Shown here: positions 5,923-61,852 of the stretch, piece after piece
Layout: the number at the start of each line of letters is the position of its first letter
How positions within the stretch are numbered: the first letter of the stretch is position 1
Assembly: GCF_023913515.1 (NCBI RefSeq)
Contig: NZ_CP099391.1
Location: 3,100,001-3,164,000 of the forward strand
Reading direction: 5' to 3'
Length of the DNA stretch: 64,000 nt
DNA from: Natronococcus sp. CG52
GTDB taxonomy: Archaea; Halobacteriota; Halobacteria; Halobacteriales; Natrialbaceae
Position numbers and translations under genes: made by a program
Notes under the pieces: model-generated
Databases searched by the model: none
Seen by the model: the letters and a program-made list of their open reading frames with translations, nothing else
Told to the model about the DNA's origin: nothing

Positions 5923-6600
5923 CTACGCCTCGGCGAGGGCGTCTTCCACGGACTCGAGCACCCGCTTGAGGACGTCCTCCAGAGTCTCCTCGACGGGATC
6001 GGTGAACTCCGCGACGGTCATCCCCCAGGAATCGTAGCCGGGCTCGACCGTAAGGATCCGCGTGTCGGCCGGAAGCGCGTCGAACGCGTTCGCGATGACG
6101 ACGACGTTCTCGACGGTGTTCGACCCCATCGCGCACTCGCCGATCCGCGCGACGAGGTCGTCGTCGGAGACTTCGAACGCGGCGGGGTCGTACTCGCGGA
6201 CGGTGCCGGGACTCTCCGAGGGCTCGCCGTCGTTCAGTTCCCCGCCCCGCTTCTCGGTGCCGACCAGGATCACGGTCTCGTACGCGCCCTCGTCGATCGT
6301 CTGGTAGGCCGCGATCGGGGTGTGGCTGCAGTCGGCGACCGCGACGCCGGGGAGATCCCACTCGAGGACGCGGTAGGCGACGACCGTTCCGAGCGCGAGG
6401 TCGCCGAGCAGCGGATAGCCGACGCCGGCGACCAGCACCGGGTCGTCGTCTCGGCCGCCGACGAGACCCGCCGCAGTCCCCGACTCCCCCGGTCGGTAGG
6501 CGTCGTCGAACAGCGGTCCCGACTCCGTCCCCTCGCGGAGGGTCCCCGCGCGGCCGTCGAACAGCGGTCGGGAACCATCCTCGCTTTCGTCGGTCGTCAT
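5923..6600 (-). CDS. Degenerate M52-family (hydrogenase maturation protease-like) protein
   Basis: 225 residues. After a 50-residue acidic extension containing two PLFD motifs, residues 55-170 follow the M52 endopeptidase plan: VLVAGVGYPLLGDLALG (55-71) lines up with the canonical G(N)xLxxDxGxG loop, and ETVILVGTEKRGG with the strand that normally reads VLVDAxxxG. By eye all three metal ligands are gone: the acidic residue after GD is Leu, the Asp of VDA is Gly, and no His matches the third ligand. It is the last gene of the structural operon, 14 nt after the large subunit. A binding or chaperone role for the large subunit is a guess. The operon's canonical protease is at 10172-10690. Confidence 0.72.
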   Translation of the reverse strand: MTTDESEDGSRPLFDGRAGTLREGTESGPLFDDAYRPGESGTAAGLVGGRDDDPVLVAGVGYPLLGDLALGTVVAYRVLEWDLPGVAVADCSHTPIAAYQTIDEGAYETVILVGTEKRGGELNDGEPSESPGTVREYDPAAFEVSDDDLVARIGECAMGSNTVENVVVIANAFDALPADTRILTVEPGYDSWGMTVAEFTDPVEETLEDVLKRVLESVEDALAEA

Positions 6601-6614
6601 CGGATCACCGGCGG

Positions 6615-8588
6615 TCAGTCCCCGCTGATGATGTCGCGGATCGCCTCCTCCGCGGGCTGGTCTCCGTCGGTGAACGAACAGCCACAGGAGGTGACGTCCT
6701 CCGCGATGACGTCGCGCTGGCGATCCGTGTGCAGGTGGACCGTACACGGCATACACGGGTCGAAGCTTCGGATCGATCGGAGGATGTCCATCCCCGAGAA
6801 GTCCTCCTCGTCGGTGAACTCCTCGAGCAGCGGCGTGTTCAGCGCGGCCTCCTCGTACGGGCCGGGGTTGCCGAAGGGATCGGTGGGCGACGCCATCCAG
6901 GTACTCGGCGTCAGGATCTGGTAGGTGTCGATAACGCCGTCCTCGATGACGACGTGGTGGGTGAGGTAGCCGCGGCCGGCCTCCCAGAAGCCGACGCCGC
7001 GCTGGGTACCCGACGATGGGACCTCGAACGGCGTGTGGATGTCGGACGCGCCCCGCTTCAGCAGTTCGAGCGCCTCGACGAACCCGGTGTAACAGACGAG
7101 CGAGCAGTAGGCGACGTGGTAGGCCTTCGCCCGCATCCGTTCGGCGGCGTTCAATCGGTCGGGAACGTCCCAGCGCAGTGTCATCTCGGGCTGTTCGGTC
7201 TCGGGCAGGTGGAGGTTCAGTCCGTCGCCGGTCGGCTCGATGTACGGGTTCTCGACCTCCTCGGCCATCGCGGTCAGCCAGTGTCGGGAGTGGGGGCCGG
7301 TCTCCATCACCTGACGGTCCCATCGGGGCGAAGTCCCCCACGTGTACTTCTCGCGCCAGGACTTCCCTTCCGGCTTCGGGCGCGTCTCCTTGTTCCAGGG
7401 ATGGTACGGGCTGATCGGACCGCCTGACGGCGTCTCCGAGAAGCGCGGCTCCTCGTCGTCGGTCCAGTCCTCGTAGTAGGAGTGGTCGACGAACTCCTCG
7501 AGGCCCATGTCCACGTCCGTCAGGTTCGTCGTCACCAGTTCGCCGTCGACGATGACGCCGGGCGTCGACAGTCGGGCCAGTCCCCACTCGTCGGCGTCCT
7601 CGTAGCGGGCGTTGTACACCGCGGGGTCGTCCCAGATGCCCGTTCCGACGAGGTTGATCGGTCGCTCGCCGACGTGCTCGTATCCCTCCAGATTCTCGAG
7701 CAGGAAGTCGAGCAGGTCGTCCCAGACGAACGCGACCTTCTTCGCGTAGTCGAAGAAGTGGTTGAGTCGCGTGTAGAACTGCTGGAACGACGTCCGGGTG
7801 AGCGTCGTCGTCAGCCCGCCCGGCGCGATGGTCGACGGGTGAGGGTACTTGCCGAGCATGAGCGACGCCGCCTGCCGCGCCTCGCGGGTGTTTTCCAGGG
7901 CTTCGAGGTAGAGTTCGCCCTCGAGCGGGTTCATCGCCGTCATGATCTCGCCGACCGTCTCGTAGCCGTGAACGTCTTCGTGGGGTGCGCTCGTCTCCTT
8001 CGCCTGCTCGACCACGTCCGGGTTGCTCTGGGAGAGCAGGGATTCGGAGTAGTCCGGCCCCGCCAGCAGGAACAGGTGCAGCGAGTGGTCGTAGAGGAAC
8101 GCCGCGGCCTGTCCCATGTTGCGCGCCCAGACGCCCATCGGCGGCGGTTCGACGGGGAACGCCATCTCGAGAGCCATCGACGAGACGATGGAGTGAACGG
8201 CCCCGCAGACGCCGCAGGCGCGACTGGACAGGTCGATGGCGTCTCGCGGATCGCGCCCCTCGAGGATGATCTCGTAGCCGCGAAACAGCGTCGCCTGGGA
8301 GTGTGCCTCGAGTACCTCCCGATTCTCGAGGTCGGCCTTCGCGTGGAACGCGAGCGCCCCGGCGACGCGGGTCACCGGATCGATGTTCACGTCCTTGACG
8401 TTCTCGCTGAGCTGATCCTCGCGTTCGGCCGACTCCTCGGTTACCCGTTCGCCGCCGTTGGTCTCCCCGTCCCCGAGGCCGTTGGTCGCGACGCCGTCGT
8501 GGTTGTCGGGAACTGCAAAGCCGGTTTCGTCGGTGAGGATCGAATTCCCCTCGTCGTCGAACTCGATCGGAAGGTTGTCGAATGTCAT
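6615..8588 (-). CDS. [NiFe] hydrogenase large (catalytic) subunit, group 1f/1h-like
   Basis: 657-residue subunit carrying the NiFe(CN)2CO active site for H2 oxidation. The N-terminal nickel ligands are C125 and C128 in RACGVCGAVH, and the C-terminal pair is C612 and C615 in DPCMPCTVH. The block LFRGYEIILEGRDPRDAIDL before the first pair, plus DHSLHLFLLAGPDYS, match my recollection of the group 1h (actinobacterial/Ralstonia AH) type. A 39-residue tail after His618 contains SCGCS and is presumably removed by the M52 protease. The start is the ATG at 8586-8588, which overlaps the stop of the preceding gene (ATGA). Residues 1-60 are an acidic extension. Group assignment is inferred by eye. Confidence 0.95.
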   Translation of the reverse strand: MTFDNLPIEFDDEGNSILTDETGFAVPDNHDGVATNGLGDGETNGGERVTEESAEREDQLSENVKDVNIDPVTRVAGALAFHAKADLENREVLEAHSQATLFRGYEIILEGRDPRDAIDLSSRACGVCGAVHSIVSSMALEMAFPVEPPPMGVWARNMGQAAAFLYDHSLHLFLLAGPDYSESLLSQSNPDVVEQAKETSAPHEDVHGYETVGEIMTAMNPLEGELYLEALENTREARQAASLMLGKYPHPSTIAPGGLTTTLTRTSFQQFYTRLNHFFDYAKKVAFVWDDLLDFLLENLEGYEHVGERPINLVGTGIWDDPAVYNARYEDADEWGLARLSTPGVIVDGELVTTNLTDVDMGLEEFVDHSYYEDWTDDEEPRFSETPSGGPISPYHPWNKETRPKPEGKSWREKYTWGTSPRWDRQVMETGPHSRHWLTAMAEEVENPYIEPTGDGLNLHLPETEQPEMTLRWDVPDRLNAAERMRAKAYHVAYCSLVCYTGFVEALELLKRGASDIHTPFEVPSSGTQRGVGFWEAGRGYLTHHVVIEDGVIDTYQILTPSTWMASPTDPFGNPGPYEEAALNTPLLEEFTDEEDFSGMDILRSIRSFDPCMPCTVHLHTDRQRDVIAEDVTSCGCSFTDGDQPAEEAIRDIISGD

Positions 8589-8876
8589 GGGTTCGTGGGT
8601 CGGTCGGTCTGGTCGGACGAGGTCGCCCGGTCGCGTTCCGCGGCGCGGACGCGCCGTCCGCGGTGGGCGGTGAGCCGCTCGCGGGCCTCCCGCGGCATTC
8701 CCGCCAGAATCGATTCGTACATTTCCTCGGGGTCCGCATCCTCGAGCGGGATGTCGGCCGTCGCGTCGTCGCAATCACAGGCGGCCGATTCGGTTTCCGT
8801 CGTCGGCCGCTCGACTGTTTCAGCCTCGCTCGCGAGGTACGGATCGCCCTCGTCGTCGAACTCGATCGGAAGGTTG
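8548..8876. repeat. 30-bp exact direct repeat at the starts of two adjacent genes
   Basis: Bases 8548-8577 and 8847-8876 are identical over 30 bp. On the minus strand both encode NLPIEFDDEG in the same frame, at residues 5-14 of the large subunit and of the 100-residue protein upstream of it. Third codon positions are identical too, so this is shared DNA (recent duplication or gene conversion) and not only a conserved peptide. Confidence 0.9.
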
Positions 8877-8887
8877 CTGAAACACAT
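8585..8887 (-). CDS. 100-residue hydrogenase-operon protein sharing the large subunit's N-terminus
   Basis: Lies between the small and large subunit genes: its ATG is 5 nt after the small subunit stop, and its TGA overlaps the large subunit ATG. It begins MCFSNLPIEFDDEG, against MTFDNLPIEFDDEG in the large subunit. Then come an acidic linker with ACDCDD (Cys37, Cys39), a predicted helix (DPEEMYESILAGMPREARERL, about 52-72) and a basic C-terminus. I do not recognise the family. Its position and translational coupling suggest an accessory or maturation partner. Cys2 and the CxC could bind metal, but that is speculation. Confidence 0.8.
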   Translation of the reverse strand: MCFSNLPIEFDDEGDPYLASEAETVERPTTETESAACDCDDATADIPLEDADPEEMYESILAGMPREARERLTAHRGRRVRAAERDRATSSDQTDRPTNP

Positions 8888-8892
8888 GCGAC

Positions 8893-10101
8893 TCAGCCAC
8901 CCCACTCCGGTTCGGGCTTTTCTTCCTCGGCGTAGTGGGCGTCGCGGCGCTGCATCCACCGGTACATGCGCTCTTCGATGCCGGGAGCCTCGTCCCAGCG
9001 GACCTCACGGTCGAGCTTCTCGATCGAGCGGTGGCGGAGCCGCTGCATGACGCCGCCGAGGAACTTCGAGGCCGTCGAGGAGATGCCCGCGCCGGGCGGC
9101 TGCGTGAAGTACGGGGTGAACTTGTCCGGGAAGCCCGGCATCGTACAGCCGATGCACTTGCCGCCCATGTTCATACAGCCGCCGATCCCGTCGCTGTTGC
9201 GCCGCGAAGGCATGTTACACTTCACGACGGGGCCCCAGCAGCCGGGCACCTTGACGAGACACTTCTCGCTCCCGTACTCCTCGGCGAAATCGCCTTCCTC
9301 GTAGTACGAGCCGCGCTCGCAGCGTCTGTGGACGGTCTCGCCGAACAGCCACTTCGGTCGGCCGAGTTCGTCGAGTTCGGGCAGCGGGCCGACGTCCTCG
9401 ACGTAGAACAGGAGGTGGGCGACGGTCTCGATGAAGTTGTCGCCGATCGGCGCACAGCCGGGGACGTTGACGACGGGGAGACCGAGGACGCTCCGGTAGT
9501 CCCGGCCGAGGTAGTCCATCGTCCCCATCGCGTCAGTGGCGTTCCCCTTCGCCGCCGGGATGCCGCCCCAGGTGGCGCAGGTACCGATGGCCAGCACCGC
9601 GGCCGCACCCGGTGCGAGGCGGTCGAGCCAGTCGACCATCTTGATCGGTTCGCCGTCCTCCTCGCCGAGCGAGATCCAGTAGCCGTCGCCGTCGATGAGT
9701 CGCTCGTTCGGGACGCTCCCCTCCACGATCACGACGTACGGGTCTCGCTCGCCGTTCGCGGCGGCCTGGAATTCGGCGACGTACTCGTCGCCCCACTCGA
9801 CGGACAGCACGGGGTGGTGGAGTTCGATCCTGGGCAGGTTCGGGATATCCCCCCGCAACAGGTGCTCGAGCCCCGGCTCGGTCGCCGAGAGCACCGACAC
9901 CGAACAGCCGTCGCAACTCTCGCCGGCGAGCCAGTAGGCGTGGAGGACGTCCTCCTCCTCGACGACCTCGCCTTCGCCGGCCTCTAGCCCTTCGGCCGTC
10001 CCCTCCGGTTCCTCGGGCCACAGCGCACCCTCGTCGGTGTCCGACTCGAGGCCGGCGTCGTGCTCGGTCGGCCGGGTCGGTTCGTCGGGTGTGCTATCCA
10101 T
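8893..10101 (-). CDS. [NiFe] hydrogenase small subunit, group 1f/1h-like
   Basis: 402-residue iron-sulphur subunit that passes electrons from the NiFe site. Proximal cluster ligands are C63 and C66 (ESCDGCSVSVL), then GTCATWGG and VPGCAPI. The distal cluster uses TVHRRCERG and EKCLVKVPGCWG. The medial region reads CNMPSRR...GGCMNMGGKCIGC, with an extra Cys where many group 1 enzymes have Pro. The rest resembles group 1h small subunits as I recall them (HHPVLSVEWGDE, CTMPGFPDKFTPY). No Tat signal and no C-terminal anchor helix are present, and residues 1-50 are a highly acidic extension. The ATG at 10101 was chosen over an in-frame TTG two codons earlier. Confidence 0.95.
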   Translation of the reverse strand: MDSTPDEPTRPTEHDAGLESDTDEGALWPEEPEGTAEGLEAGEGEVVEEEDVLHAYWLAGESCDGCSVSVLSATEPGLEHLLRGDIPNLPRIELHHPVLSVEWGDEYVAEFQAAANGERDPYVVIVEGSVPNERLIDGDGYWISLGEEDGEPIKMVDWLDRLAPGAAAVLAIGTCATWGGIPAAKGNATDAMGTMDYLGRDYRSVLGLPVVNVPGCAPIGDNFIETVAHLLFYVEDVGPLPELDELGRPKWLFGETVHRRCERGSYYEEGDFAEEYGSEKCLVKVPGCWGPVVKCNMPSRRNSDGIGGCMNMGGKCIGCTMPGFPDKFTPYFTQPPGAGISSTASKFLGGVMQRLRHRSIEKLDREVRWDEAPGIEERMYRWMQRRDAHYAEEEKPEPEWGG

Positions 10102-10171: not shown

Positions 10172-10690
10172 TCAGTCCTCGAGCCGTCCGCTCGAGCGGA
10201 GTTCCTCGACGACGAGCTCGACGTGCTCGACGGCCCGCGGCACCGCCTCCCGAACTGGATCGCTCAGTCGGTCCTCGAGATCGTCCGTCTCGTACGGTTC
10301 GCAGCCGACCAGTATCGTCGGCTCCGGCAAGACGCCCAGAGCTTCCCCGAGCACCAGTACCTTCGAGGGATCGGTCTGGTGCATGTCGGCCGCGAAGCCG
10401 CCGATCTCGCGATTCGAGTACTCATCCAGATCCGGCACCTCCGCGCGTTCGACGTAGAGCGTCCCCGGCTCGTCGCCCCGTTCCATCGCGTCGACCAGGA
10501 CGAGCGCGTCGTACTCGTCGAGCAGCTCCTGGGCCATGCTCACGCCGGAGATGCCGACCTCGACGACCGTCACCGACGGGGGGAGGTCGCGGTCCTCGAG
10601 CGCCTCCGCGACTGCGACGCCGAAGCCGTCGTCGCCGCGAAGCAGGTTCCCCATGCACGCGACGAGGATCCGTTCGCTCACACGGTCCAT
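10172..10690 (-). CDS. Hydrogenase maturation protease (M52, HyaD/HycI family)
   Basis: 172-residue nickel-dependent endopeptidase that removes the C-terminal tail of the large subunit after nickel insertion. The canonical loop GNLLRGDDGFG is at residues 14-24 with the acidic ligand at D21. VLVDAMERGDEPGTLY supplies the second Asp, and the His of ADMHQTDPSKVL the third ligand. The length is normal for the family. It is the first gene of the structural operon, 70 nt upstream of the small subunit, and diverges from the winged-helix gene at 10765. Confidence 0.92.
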   Translation of the reverse strand: MDRVSERILVACMGNLLRGDDGFGVAVAEALEDRDLPPSVTVVEVGISGVSMAQELLDEYDALVLVDAMERGDEPGTLYVERAEVPDLDEYSNREIGGFAADMHQTDPSKVLVLGEALGVLPEPTILVGCEPYETDDLEDRLSDPVREAVPRAVEHVELVVEELRSSGRLED

Positions 10691-10764: not shown

Positions 10765-11154
10765 ATGGCCCGCGACGCCAGCACCGACGAGGTCGACGAG
10801 CTGTTCTGGCGCGACGAGGTGCTGGAGGCGATGTACTGGATGATCGGCGAGGGAATCGAGGAGGCGGTCGCCCCGAGAGATCTCCGGGGATTCCTCGACG
10901 CGCCGGCCGACGTCGTCGAGCGGACGTTCGCGGCCCTCGAGGCGCGGGAACAGGTCCGGGAAACGTCTCGAGGGTACGTGTTCACGGAGCACGGCGAGGA
11001 GGAGGCCAAACGCCGATTCGCCGACGAGTTCGCCGACGTGCAGGGCTTTACCGCCTCGCACACCGACTGCGGCCCGGACTGCTGGTGTCACGACCCCGAC
11101 CACGCCGAGGACGAGTGTCCCTCCGAGCACGACCACCAGCACACCCACCACTGA
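10765..11154 (+). CDS. Winged-helix protein with Cys/His-rich metal-binding tail
   Basis: 129 residues. Residues 1-85 read as a winged helix (EAVAPRDLRGFL, VVERTFAALEAREQVRE, GYVFTEHGEEEAKRRF). The C-terminal tail, about 96-129, holds Cys at CGPDCWC and DECPSEH, and ends in HDHQHTHH. Such tails bind soft or borderline metals such as Ni, Zn or Cu. It diverges from the hydrogenase operon. It could be a metal-sensing repressor of that operon or a nickel-storage factor analogous to the His-rich region of HypB. The ATG at 10765 begins the conserved-looking part; an in-frame ATG at 10738 would add nine poorly matching residues. Confidence 0.78.
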   Translation: MARDASTDEVDELFWRDEVLEAMYWMIGEGIEEAVAPRDLRGFLDAPADVVERTFAALEAREQVRETSRGYVFTEHGEEEAKRRFADEFADVQGFTASHTDCGPDCWCHDPDHAEDECPSEHDHQHTHH

Positions 11155-59173: not shown

Positions 59174-60451
59174 ATGCTCACCAGACGCGCTGTGCTCGCG
59201 ACCGGCGGAAGCGCACTGCTCGCCGGCTGTAGCGCGTTCGAGACGATGTCCGAGACGACAGGGTCGTGGCCACAGCAGGGATACGACAGCGCTCGGACCG
59301 GCCATCCGGCGGATCTTGAGGGACCCGATGCGTCCCTGACGACCGGCTGGACCGCCGAGTACCCTCGTTACGGCGGCACCCCGACGTCACCCGTTCTCGC
59401 CGATGGATCGGTCTACATCGCCTACACGGACGGTCCACCGCCGATCGGAGACGGCGAACGGACCGTTTCCGTCGCCGCGTTCGATCCCGAGACGGGGGAT
59501 CGACAGTGGACGACGGCAGTGATGACGAGTCGGGAGGACAGCGGAACGGAGTACCACGCCGACTCGCTCGCCGTCGCCGGCGACACGATACTGGTACAGA
59601 CTGCGAACGGCATCCACGCGGTCGGAACCGACGGCGACCGGCGGTGGCGATTCGACAACGTCGGCGACGGTCATCTCAGTATCAGAGCCGTTAGTCCGAG
59701 TTTCGACGACGACGCCGTCTACGTGGGTCACTACCGACAATCGCGGGACGAGTACGAGTCGGTGTTCTACGCGGTCGACCGCGAAGATGGATCCGAGCGC
59801 TGGCGCCACGAGTTCTCGGAGTGGGAGAGTCGCAGCGTCTACTCCTCGGCCGTCGTCGACGGCGTCGTCTACCTCGCGGCGTACGACGACGGCGTCAAGG
59901 CGCTCGACGCGGACGACGGATCCGAGCGCTGGCGCTCGTCGATTCCCGTCAACAGCACGCCGACCGTCGTGGACGGGACCGTCTTCGTCGGCACGGACCG
60001 GGACGACGAAAGCGGCGTCGTCGCACTCGAGGCCGACACCGGCGAGGTTCGCTGGTCCCGCGGGGACGCCGGACAGTCGTGGGCGCCGCGCCACCTCGCG
60101 GCGACCCCCGACGCCATCTACTACCCCGAACACGACCGCCTCGTCGCTCGAGAGATCGAGACGGGAGCCCCGCTCTGGGAGGACGACGCCGGCCGTCCCG
60201 AGGCGGAAGGAGAATTCATCGGCGGCGGCACGCCAGCAGTCGTCGGTGATCGCATCTACGCCGGCGGGTCGGGCGTCTACGTGCTCGATCGGGAGAGCGG
60301 CGAGGTCCTCGAGCGGTACGAACTGAACGCCGGAACGGTCCGGAACTCGGTCGCGGTAGCCGACGGCTGGCTGTACGCGAACACGAACGGGCGCACGCTG
60401 TACGGGCTCACCGACTGCGAAACGGAAGTGTTCGGCCGCTGTCTTCGGTAA
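59174..60451 (+). CDS. PQQ-like beta-propeller lipoprotein, copy 1
   Basis: 425 residues. The Tat-type lipoprotein signal is MLTRRAVLATGGSALLAGC with its lipobox ending at the Cys. The mature part is an eight-bladed PQQ-like propeller with recurring blade motifs (SPVLADGSVYIAYTD, FDPETGDRQWTT, DGVVYLAAYDDGVKALDADDG, ALEADTGEVRWS). Such proteins bind outer-surface complexes or PQQ-like ligands; no catalytic residues can be assigned. The ATG is at 59174. It is paralogous to the next gene. Confidence 0.9.
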   Translation: MLTRRAVLATGGSALLAGCSAFETMSETTGSWPQQGYDSARTGHPADLEGPDASLTTGWTAEYPRYGGTPTSPVLADGSVYIAYTDGPPPIGDGERTVSVAAFDPETGDRQWTTAVMTSREDSGTEYHADSLAVAGDTILVQTANGIHAVGTDGDRRWRFDNVGDGHLSIRAVSPSFDDDAVYVGHYRQSRDEYESVFYAVDREDGSERWRHEFSEWESRSVYSSAVVDGVVYLAAYDDGVKALDADDGSERWRSSIPVNSTPTVVDGTVFVGTDRDDESGVVALEADTGEVRWSRGDAGQSWAPRHLAATPDAIYYPEHDRLVAREIETGAPLWEDDAGRPEAEGEFIGGGTPAVVGDRIYAGGSGVYVLDRESGEVLERYELNAGTVRNSVAVADGWLYANTNGRTLYGLTDCETEVFGRCLR

Positions 60452-60553: not shown

Positions 60554-61852
60554 ATGCCCTCCAGACGCGCCGTCCTCGCGGCCTGCGGGAGCGCAGCGCT
60601 CGCCGGCTGTTCGACGCTCCGAGACGATCCGACGATAACCGTCTCGTGGCCCCAGCGGGGATACGATCGGGCTAGAACCGGATCCGTCGACGACGCGTTC
60701 ACTGGCCCCGAACCGCCACTGGCCGACGGCTGGACGCGATCGCTCCCCGACGGCCGCGGGTCCGAAACGTCCCCGATTCTCGCGGACGGCACGCTCTACG
60801 TGGGAGATACGAACGGTCCCCTACCCGGGACGGCGGGAGAGCGAACCGTCACGATCGACGCCCTGGATCCGGGAACGGGCGAGCGCCGCTGGAGCGCGAC
60901 CGCGACGACGACTCGAGAATCTCACGGGACGTACTACCACGCGGATTCGCTGGCGTTCGCCCGGGAGACGGAACTAATCCTGCTCCAGACTTCGAACGGC
61001 CTCTGCGCGGTCGGCACCGACGGCGCCGAGCGGTGGTGTTTCGACAACGTCGGCGACGGACAGCTCAGCTACCAGCCGGTCGCTCCGGCCGTCGACGCCG
61101 AAACAGCCTACGTCGGGCGGTATCGACGGATCGCGACGGACGATACCGAACCGGCGTTCTACGCCGTCGACCTCGAGGACGGGTCCGAGCGCTGGCGTCA
61201 CGAGTTCTCGGCGTGGGACGGACGACTCGTTTACTCGCCCGCGGTCGCCGACGGCGTCGTCTACCTCGCGGCGTACGACGAAGGCGTCATGGCGCTCGAC
61301 GCGAGCGACGGAACCGAACTGTGGCGCGAGTCGGTTCCCGTCGACAGTGCGCCGACAGTAGCGAACGGGGCCGTCTACGTGACGACCGTCCACTACGACG
61401 ACGAGGAACTCGGCGCGAGCGCGCTCGAGGCCGATACCGGAGAAGTCCGCTGGTCGGTGACGGACGAGCGACAGGATGCGTGGGCGCCGCGTCACCTCGC
61501 AGTGACCGATAAGGAAGTCTACTACCCGACGTTCGGACGACTCGTCGCTCGGGATGCGGAAACGGGAGCACAGCTCTGGGAGGAGACCGACGACCAGGCC
61601 CCGGCGGGGGTGGGCCGGATCGGAAGCGGAGCCCCGGCCGTCGTCGGAGATCGGATCTACGCCGCCGGCTCCGACGTGTTCGTGCTCGACCGCTCCGACG
61701 GATCGGTTCTCAGCCGGTACGAGACCGATCGGGATACCGAGAGTTCCGTCGCCCTCGCGGGCGGCTGGCTCTACGTAAACACGGGCCCGACGCTGTACGG
61801 GTTGACCACCTGTGAAACCGAAGTGCTCGACCGCTGTCTCCGTCAGGGATAA
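60554..61852 (+). CDS. PQQ-like beta-propeller lipoprotein, copy 2
   Basis: 432 residues. Same architecture as copy 1: lipoprotein signal MPSRRAVLAACGSAALAGC, then propeller blades with SPILADGTLYVGDTN, LDPGTGERRWSAT, DGVVYLAAYDEGVMALDASDG and ALEADTGEVRWSV. Whole stretches match copy 1 (WRHEFS, VVYLAAYD, AVVGDRIYA, CETEV), so this is a tandem duplication. The stop is 4 nt from the stop of the convergent aminotransferase. Confidence 0.9.
   Translation: MPSRRAVLAACGSAALAGCSTLRDDPTITVSWPQRGYDRARTGSVDDAFTGPEPPLADGWTRSLPDGRGSETSPILADGTLYVGDTNGPLPGTAGERTVTIDALDPGTGERRWSATATTTRESHGTYYHADSLAFARETELILLQTSNGLCAVGTDGAERWCFDNVGDGQLSYQPVAPAVDAETAYVGRYRRIATDDTEPAFYAVDLEDGSERWRHEFSAWDGRLVYSPAVADGVVYLAAYDEGVMALDASDGTELWRESVPVDSAPTVANGAVYVTTVHYDDEELGASALEADTGEVRWSVTDERQDAWAPRHLAVTDKEVYYPTFGRLVARDAETGAQLWEETDDQAPAGVGRIGSGAPAVVGDRIYAAGSDVFVLDRSDGSVLSRYETDRDTESSVALAGGWLYVNTGPTLYGLTTCETEVLDRCLRQG

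Follow-up and report, generated by a model that had tools for sequence, protein, structure and literature searches.

The hydrogenase of Thermomicrobium roseum has been placed in group 1h and oxidizes H2 to sub-atmospheric levels (PMC6776052), and the hydrogenases of some haloarchaea cluster with group 1h (PMC11018855). The closest solved large subunit to the one described here is that of the actinobacterial-type group 1h enzyme HofG/HofK (PDB 5aa5). A small extra subunit encoded in a structural operon is known from mycobacterial Huc, a group 2a enzyme (PMC10017518). The HypC/HupF proteins, which begin with Met-Cys followed by Pro, act on large subunits. We analysed a window of 64,000 nucleotides from the haloarchaeon Natronococcus sp. 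CG52 (contig NZ_CP099391.1, positions 3,100,001 to 3,164,000), in which a hydrogenase operon contains a small gene whose product opens with the same peptide as the large subunit.

The gene order on the minus strand is hydrogenase small (FeS) subunit (P0003, 8893-10101, by eye without a Tat-like signal), a 100-aa protein (P0001, MCFSNLPIEFDDEGDPYLASE..., 8585-8887) and [NiFe]-hydrogenase large subunit (P0002, 657 aa, MTFDNLPIEFDDEG..., 6615-8588), the stop codon of the small gene overlapping the start codon of the large-subunit gene (ATGA). Directly downstream of the large-subunit gene, on the same strand, lies a gene for a protein that by eye is maturation-protease-like (5923-6600), which has no Pfam match and is kept in the related operons read. 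Adjoining the small-subunit gene is a HycI-type maturation protease gene (10172-10690, minus strand) that is conserved in haloarchaea and whose Chloroflexota counterpart matches Pfam HycI (9.2e-20). A further operon-conserved protein (10765-11154) has a Cys/His-rich C-terminus (CGPDCWCHDPDHAEDECPSEHDHQHTHH) that might bind metal, and gives a weak match to the N-terminal domain of HVO_A0261.

The large subunit contains both NiFe-ligand motifs, RxCGxCxxxH (R123-C125-C128-H132) and DPCxxCxxH (D610-P611-C612-C615-H618), and matches Pfam NiFeSe_Hases (6.9e-72). Its best PDB match is HofG (5aa5, E 7.4e-151), in an alignment that begins no earlier than residue 64 of the window protein and matches no N-terminal tag. 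In a collection of 84,980 species, the closest genomes among the best matches listed, beyond which there may be further tagged lineages, are Thermomicrobiaceae/Chloroflexota (52-55%, alignment from residue 1), followed by actinobacterial, acidobacterial and verrucomicrobial enzymes, for which the figure is about 41-44% and the alignment begins only around residue 27-70. A maximum-likelihood tree separates the haloarchaeal and Chloroflexota large subunits from other group 1h enzymes with branch support of 100/100, and within it the haloarchaea fall on one side of a branch with support of 100/100 and the Chloroflexota with 99/94. The closest relatives are group 1h enzymes: HofG in the PDB, Thermomicrobia-type genomes among the matches listed, and a position in the tree beside the plain 1h enzymes.

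An earlier note on this DNA had claimed that two adjoining proteins begin with the same peptide, that the DNA encoding it is identical even at silent sites, and that the rest of the two proteins is unrelated. The first claim is borne out by sequence comparison: the exact 30-mer CCCTCGTCGTCGAACTCGATCGGAAGGTTG (plus strand) occurs as a direct repeat at 8548-8577, in the large-subunit gene, and at 8847-8876, in the small gene. It sits within a direct repeat of about 55 nt (82%) that starts from both ATG codons and spans codons 1-18, the exact block running from the third base of codon 4 to the second base of codon 14. The 100-aa protein begins with MCFSNLPIEFDDEG (opening sequence MCFSNLPIEFDDEGDPYL) and the large subunit with MTFDNLPIEFDDEG (opening sequence MTFDNLPIEFDDEGNSIL). 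Codons 1-18 encode a Cys-containing tag in the small protein (8834-8887, minus strand, tag profile E 2.0e-14) and a Cys-less tag in the large subunit (8535-8588, minus strand, E 3.8e-8). Beyond the tag no alignment joins the two proteins, and the profile comparison ends at residue 21-23, which agrees with the third claim. The silent identity holds for 29 of the 30 bases of the ten codons for NLPIEFDDEG, but one codon differs, Gly being GGG in the large subunit and GGC in the small gene.

A repeat of 30 nt is far beyond chance, because in Markov resamplings of orders 1, 3 and 5 no repeat exceeded 22 nt for the 8-kb region or 20 nt for the whole window; in the 64-kb window itself there are just two exact direct repeats of at least 24 nt, the 30-mer being one. 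For a fixed peptide, at least 9 of 10 codons would be identical through local codon usage alone with p 0.07, so the silent identity is in itself a weak argument for recent copying. The presence in both copies of the rare Leu codon CTT (3% usage) is a stronger hint in that direction.

The enzyme is present in 7 of 391 haloarchaeal genomes, and in only 3 of the 125 genomes of the window's own family; an eighth operon (G825) came from a family search. In all eight of these operons, which belong to three families, a small gene with a Cys tag lies between the subunit genes, directly upstream of the large subunit. The small proteins are 77-100 aa long, and their tags read MCFSNLPIEFDD (three operons), MCLDK[FI]PVEFD (four) or MCMSNLPIEFDEN (one). 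The large-subunit tags, all of them Cys-less, read MTFDNLPIEFDD (three operons), VDYEFRNLPIAFDDDG from a GTG start (one) or the drifted MFE(N/K/H)LP(I/L)xRxDDG (four). Related haloarchaeal operons, which the earlier note had proposed to inspect, therefore carry a recognisable tag in both genes in every case, the large-subunit copy being canonical in four, including the window, and drifted in the other four. In the tree G825 groups with the window's lineage (91/81), in keeping with a large-subunit tag that is canonical in both and drifted in the other four. A search of 15 hydrogenase-bearing genomes (G825 not among them) with the tag profile, at a sensitivity at which the drifted copies of the large subunits stay above E 1, gave no further tag copies. 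The small protein had no match in Pfam, NCBIfam, the PDB or plasmids, and neither the tag peptide nor the tag profile gave anything significant against the PDB and plasmids.

The earlier note knew of no such shared tag in other hydrogenases, and on this point it has to be corrected. Nine Chloroflexota large subunits, from the Thermomicrobium-like sister clade within group 1h, bear the tag as their own N-terminus and open with [MV]CF[KQ]NLP[IV]xFD, Cys2 being invariant in them. The MCFKNLP tag was found in Thermomicrobiaceae and other Chloroflexota read here, T. roseum itself not being among them. Profile alignments link the N-termini of the small protein and of the haloarchaeal and Chloroflexota large subunits over 21-23 residues (E 1.5e-12 to 2.2e-9), and the consensus of the module is MC-[FLM]-x-x-[LFI]-P-[IV]-x-F-D-x-x-G-x-x-x-L. 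The T. roseum-type group 1h enzymes (hhyLS; PMC6776052) resemble those of haloarchaea in that their large subunits form the sister clade and in operon content, the Chloroflexota and haloarchaeal operons having neighbouring genes in common. Unlike the haloarchaeal enzymes, they have the tag on the large subunit only, and no separate small gene or second tag gene was found in the operons of the nine relatives. The tag is absent from the large subunits of ordinary group 1h enzymes, within Chloroflexota as well as outside them, and the tag profile gave no match below E 0.05 on 25 whole genomes with ordinary group 1h enzymes. Each operon has a single Cys-bearing tag, in Chloroflexota as part of the large subunit and in haloarchaea as part of a separate protein, which suggests that the module is able to work in trans.

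We consider it fairly probable that an ancestral N-terminal module of the large subunit was duplicated to a stand-alone gene on the haloarchaeal stem, its product most likely acting in trans and docking like the built-in tag. The repeated peptide would be the ancestral N-terminal module of the large subunit of one group 1h [NiFe]-hydrogenase lineage, which in the Thermomicrobium-like Chloroflexota would have stayed as the N-terminus of that subunit. A copy of the 5' end of the large-subunit gene would, on the haloarchaeal stem, have become a gene of its own between the subunit genes, a direction, from large subunit to small gene, that we infer. The small protein would have retained the Cys-bearing canonical tag and the large subunit a Cys-less copy, canonical in the window's lineage and drifted in others, and in this window both copies would be held near-identical in DNA by purifying selection and codon bias, probably with the help of gene conversion. 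The small protein would then be an accessory or assembly subunit acting in trans, its tag docking on the surface used by the built-in tag, either inside the enzyme or on a single partner common to both. This course of events is the simplest reading, although a loss of the small gene in Chloroflexota, instead of a gain in haloarchaea, would also account for the distribution. No homologue of the body of the small protein was found in the Chloroflexota operons, and therefore the small protein is not simply the whole extension split off; the body is alike by eye to a helix of the Chloroflexota extension, but profile comparison gives no support to that likeness.

More tentatively, the N-terminal module copied to its own gene may have become a dedicated trans subunit of an archaeal atmospheric-H2-type hydrogenase, in which the Cys-bearing free tag and the Cys-less built-in tag share the labour and gene conversion keeps them in step. 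AlphaFold models of two large subunits, from 22-row alignments, have a mean pLDDT of 61-62, with the tag at about 30-50 and not placed; they weakly suggest that the tag is perhaps a small beta-hairpin. We also considered the tag Cys as a transferred FeS ligand, but, by eye, none of the usual Cys/His ligands seems to be missing from the small subunit and therefore the tag Cys is not obviously needed. If the duplication reading is true, haloarchaeal group 1h-like hydrogenases have in the small protein a subunit or assembly factor not described before, the Thermomicrobium-type enzyme has in the tag a conserved N-terminal element covered by no solved structure, and the locus is a clean case of an N-terminal piece of an enzyme turned into a separate gene.

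The main rival to the accessory-subunit reading is a role in maturation. The small protein would then serve as a dedicated chaperone: by imitating the start of the large subunit it would hold or let go of a maturation protein (HypC/HypD or a protease) while the NiFe site is assembled, and its N-terminal Cys may bind metal. Such a role would suit a locus that also encodes HypC, HypD, HypE, HypF and proteases, the Met-Cys start followed by Pro that recalls HypC, and the invariance of Cys2 in both the small protein and the Chloroflexota large subunits, yet we regard it as unlikely. The Chloroflexota do without a separate protein, and identification of the small protein as HypC/HupF, judged by an MC[LIV][AGS][IV]P start and by profile, was rejected because the spacing of the Pro is off by one residue, the profile of the tag fails to align with that of HypC (hhalign probability 0.8%) and there is no Pfam match. 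A scaffold of the HucM type was likewise rejected: HucM is a 188-aa helical protein encoded upstream of hucS with no tag reported, whereas the protein here is 77-100 aa, is encoded between the small and large subunits and has no PDB match.

The earlier note had also allowed for a neutral local duplication, in which a recent and functionless copy opens a dispensable reading frame. The near-identical DNA in this window and the drift of the large-subunit copy in four related operons could be taken in this way, but the reading is very improbable, as the small gene with its Cys tag is kept in all eight operons across three families and the same tag is conserved in Chloroflexota. The tag of the small protein is, moreover, under strong purifying selection, with pN/pS of 0.03-0.23 in most pairs versus 0.28-0.64 in the body of the protein, despite many silent changes between lineages. 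Hardly any credit is left for a translation-control or mRNA element without a protein tag, to which the position exactly at two start codons and the ATGA overlap of the genes might point, since within haloarchaeal groups the amino acids of the tag are conserved while its codons change (pS about 0.2-0.8 at pN about 0.03-0.13) and the peptide is conserved in bacteria too.

With regard to gene conversion, both tag copies encode Leu6 by CTT and residue 13 by GAG in this genome (G000) and G008, Leu6 by CTG and residue 13 by GAC in G153, and Leu6 by CTC in G825. Codon identity between the copies within a genome is 9, 8, 8 and 7 of 10, which equals or exceeds most between-genome values. Gene conversion is efficient between the genome copies of polyploid Haloferax volcanii (PMC8223754, PMC11276520), and it has probably occurred between the two tag copies in this window, the signal being suggestive only, as it comes from few sites and only three or four lineages. 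The near-identical DNA here reflects conservation and codon bias, probably together with gene conversion. Of the earlier suggestion of a recent copy kept by gene conversion, the gene conversion is thus retained as probable in view of the within-genome codon matching, while a fresh local duplication is not. The other suggestion, an N-terminal docking tag, gains from the conservation of the tag in both genes of the eight operons and from the selection on it; the docking function itself and its partner are hypothetical.

Several minor observations were also made. The C-terminal peptide of the large subunit past the cleavage His contains a CxC motif (TSCGC / NTCAC) in haloarchaea and Chloroflexota (window 6615-6740; in Chloroflexota e.g. 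L014:10780-10869). A hydrogenase large-subunit-like protein in G825 (L183, G825:C34:1425-3095) has no tag, is missing one Ni-ligand Cys (SRVCGDTG) and stops right after DPCMVCAGH, with none of the peptide that is usually cleaved from the C-terminus. Of six Chloroflexota operons read, five (L014, at about 7779-8984, and L161-L164) have several small hydrophobic open reading frames between the subunit genes, every one of them with a single strongly hydrophobic stretch at the N-terminus and a tail that is more polar; the sixth (L165) has a 300-base gap there and no small open reading frames, and they are absent at that place in haloarchaea. The longest exact direct repeat of the window is one of 33 nt (CGACGGCGTCGTCTACCTCGCGGCGTACGAC...) at 59857-59889 and 61249-61281, in which one forward frame resembles an internal protein repeat (DGVVYLAAYDDG).
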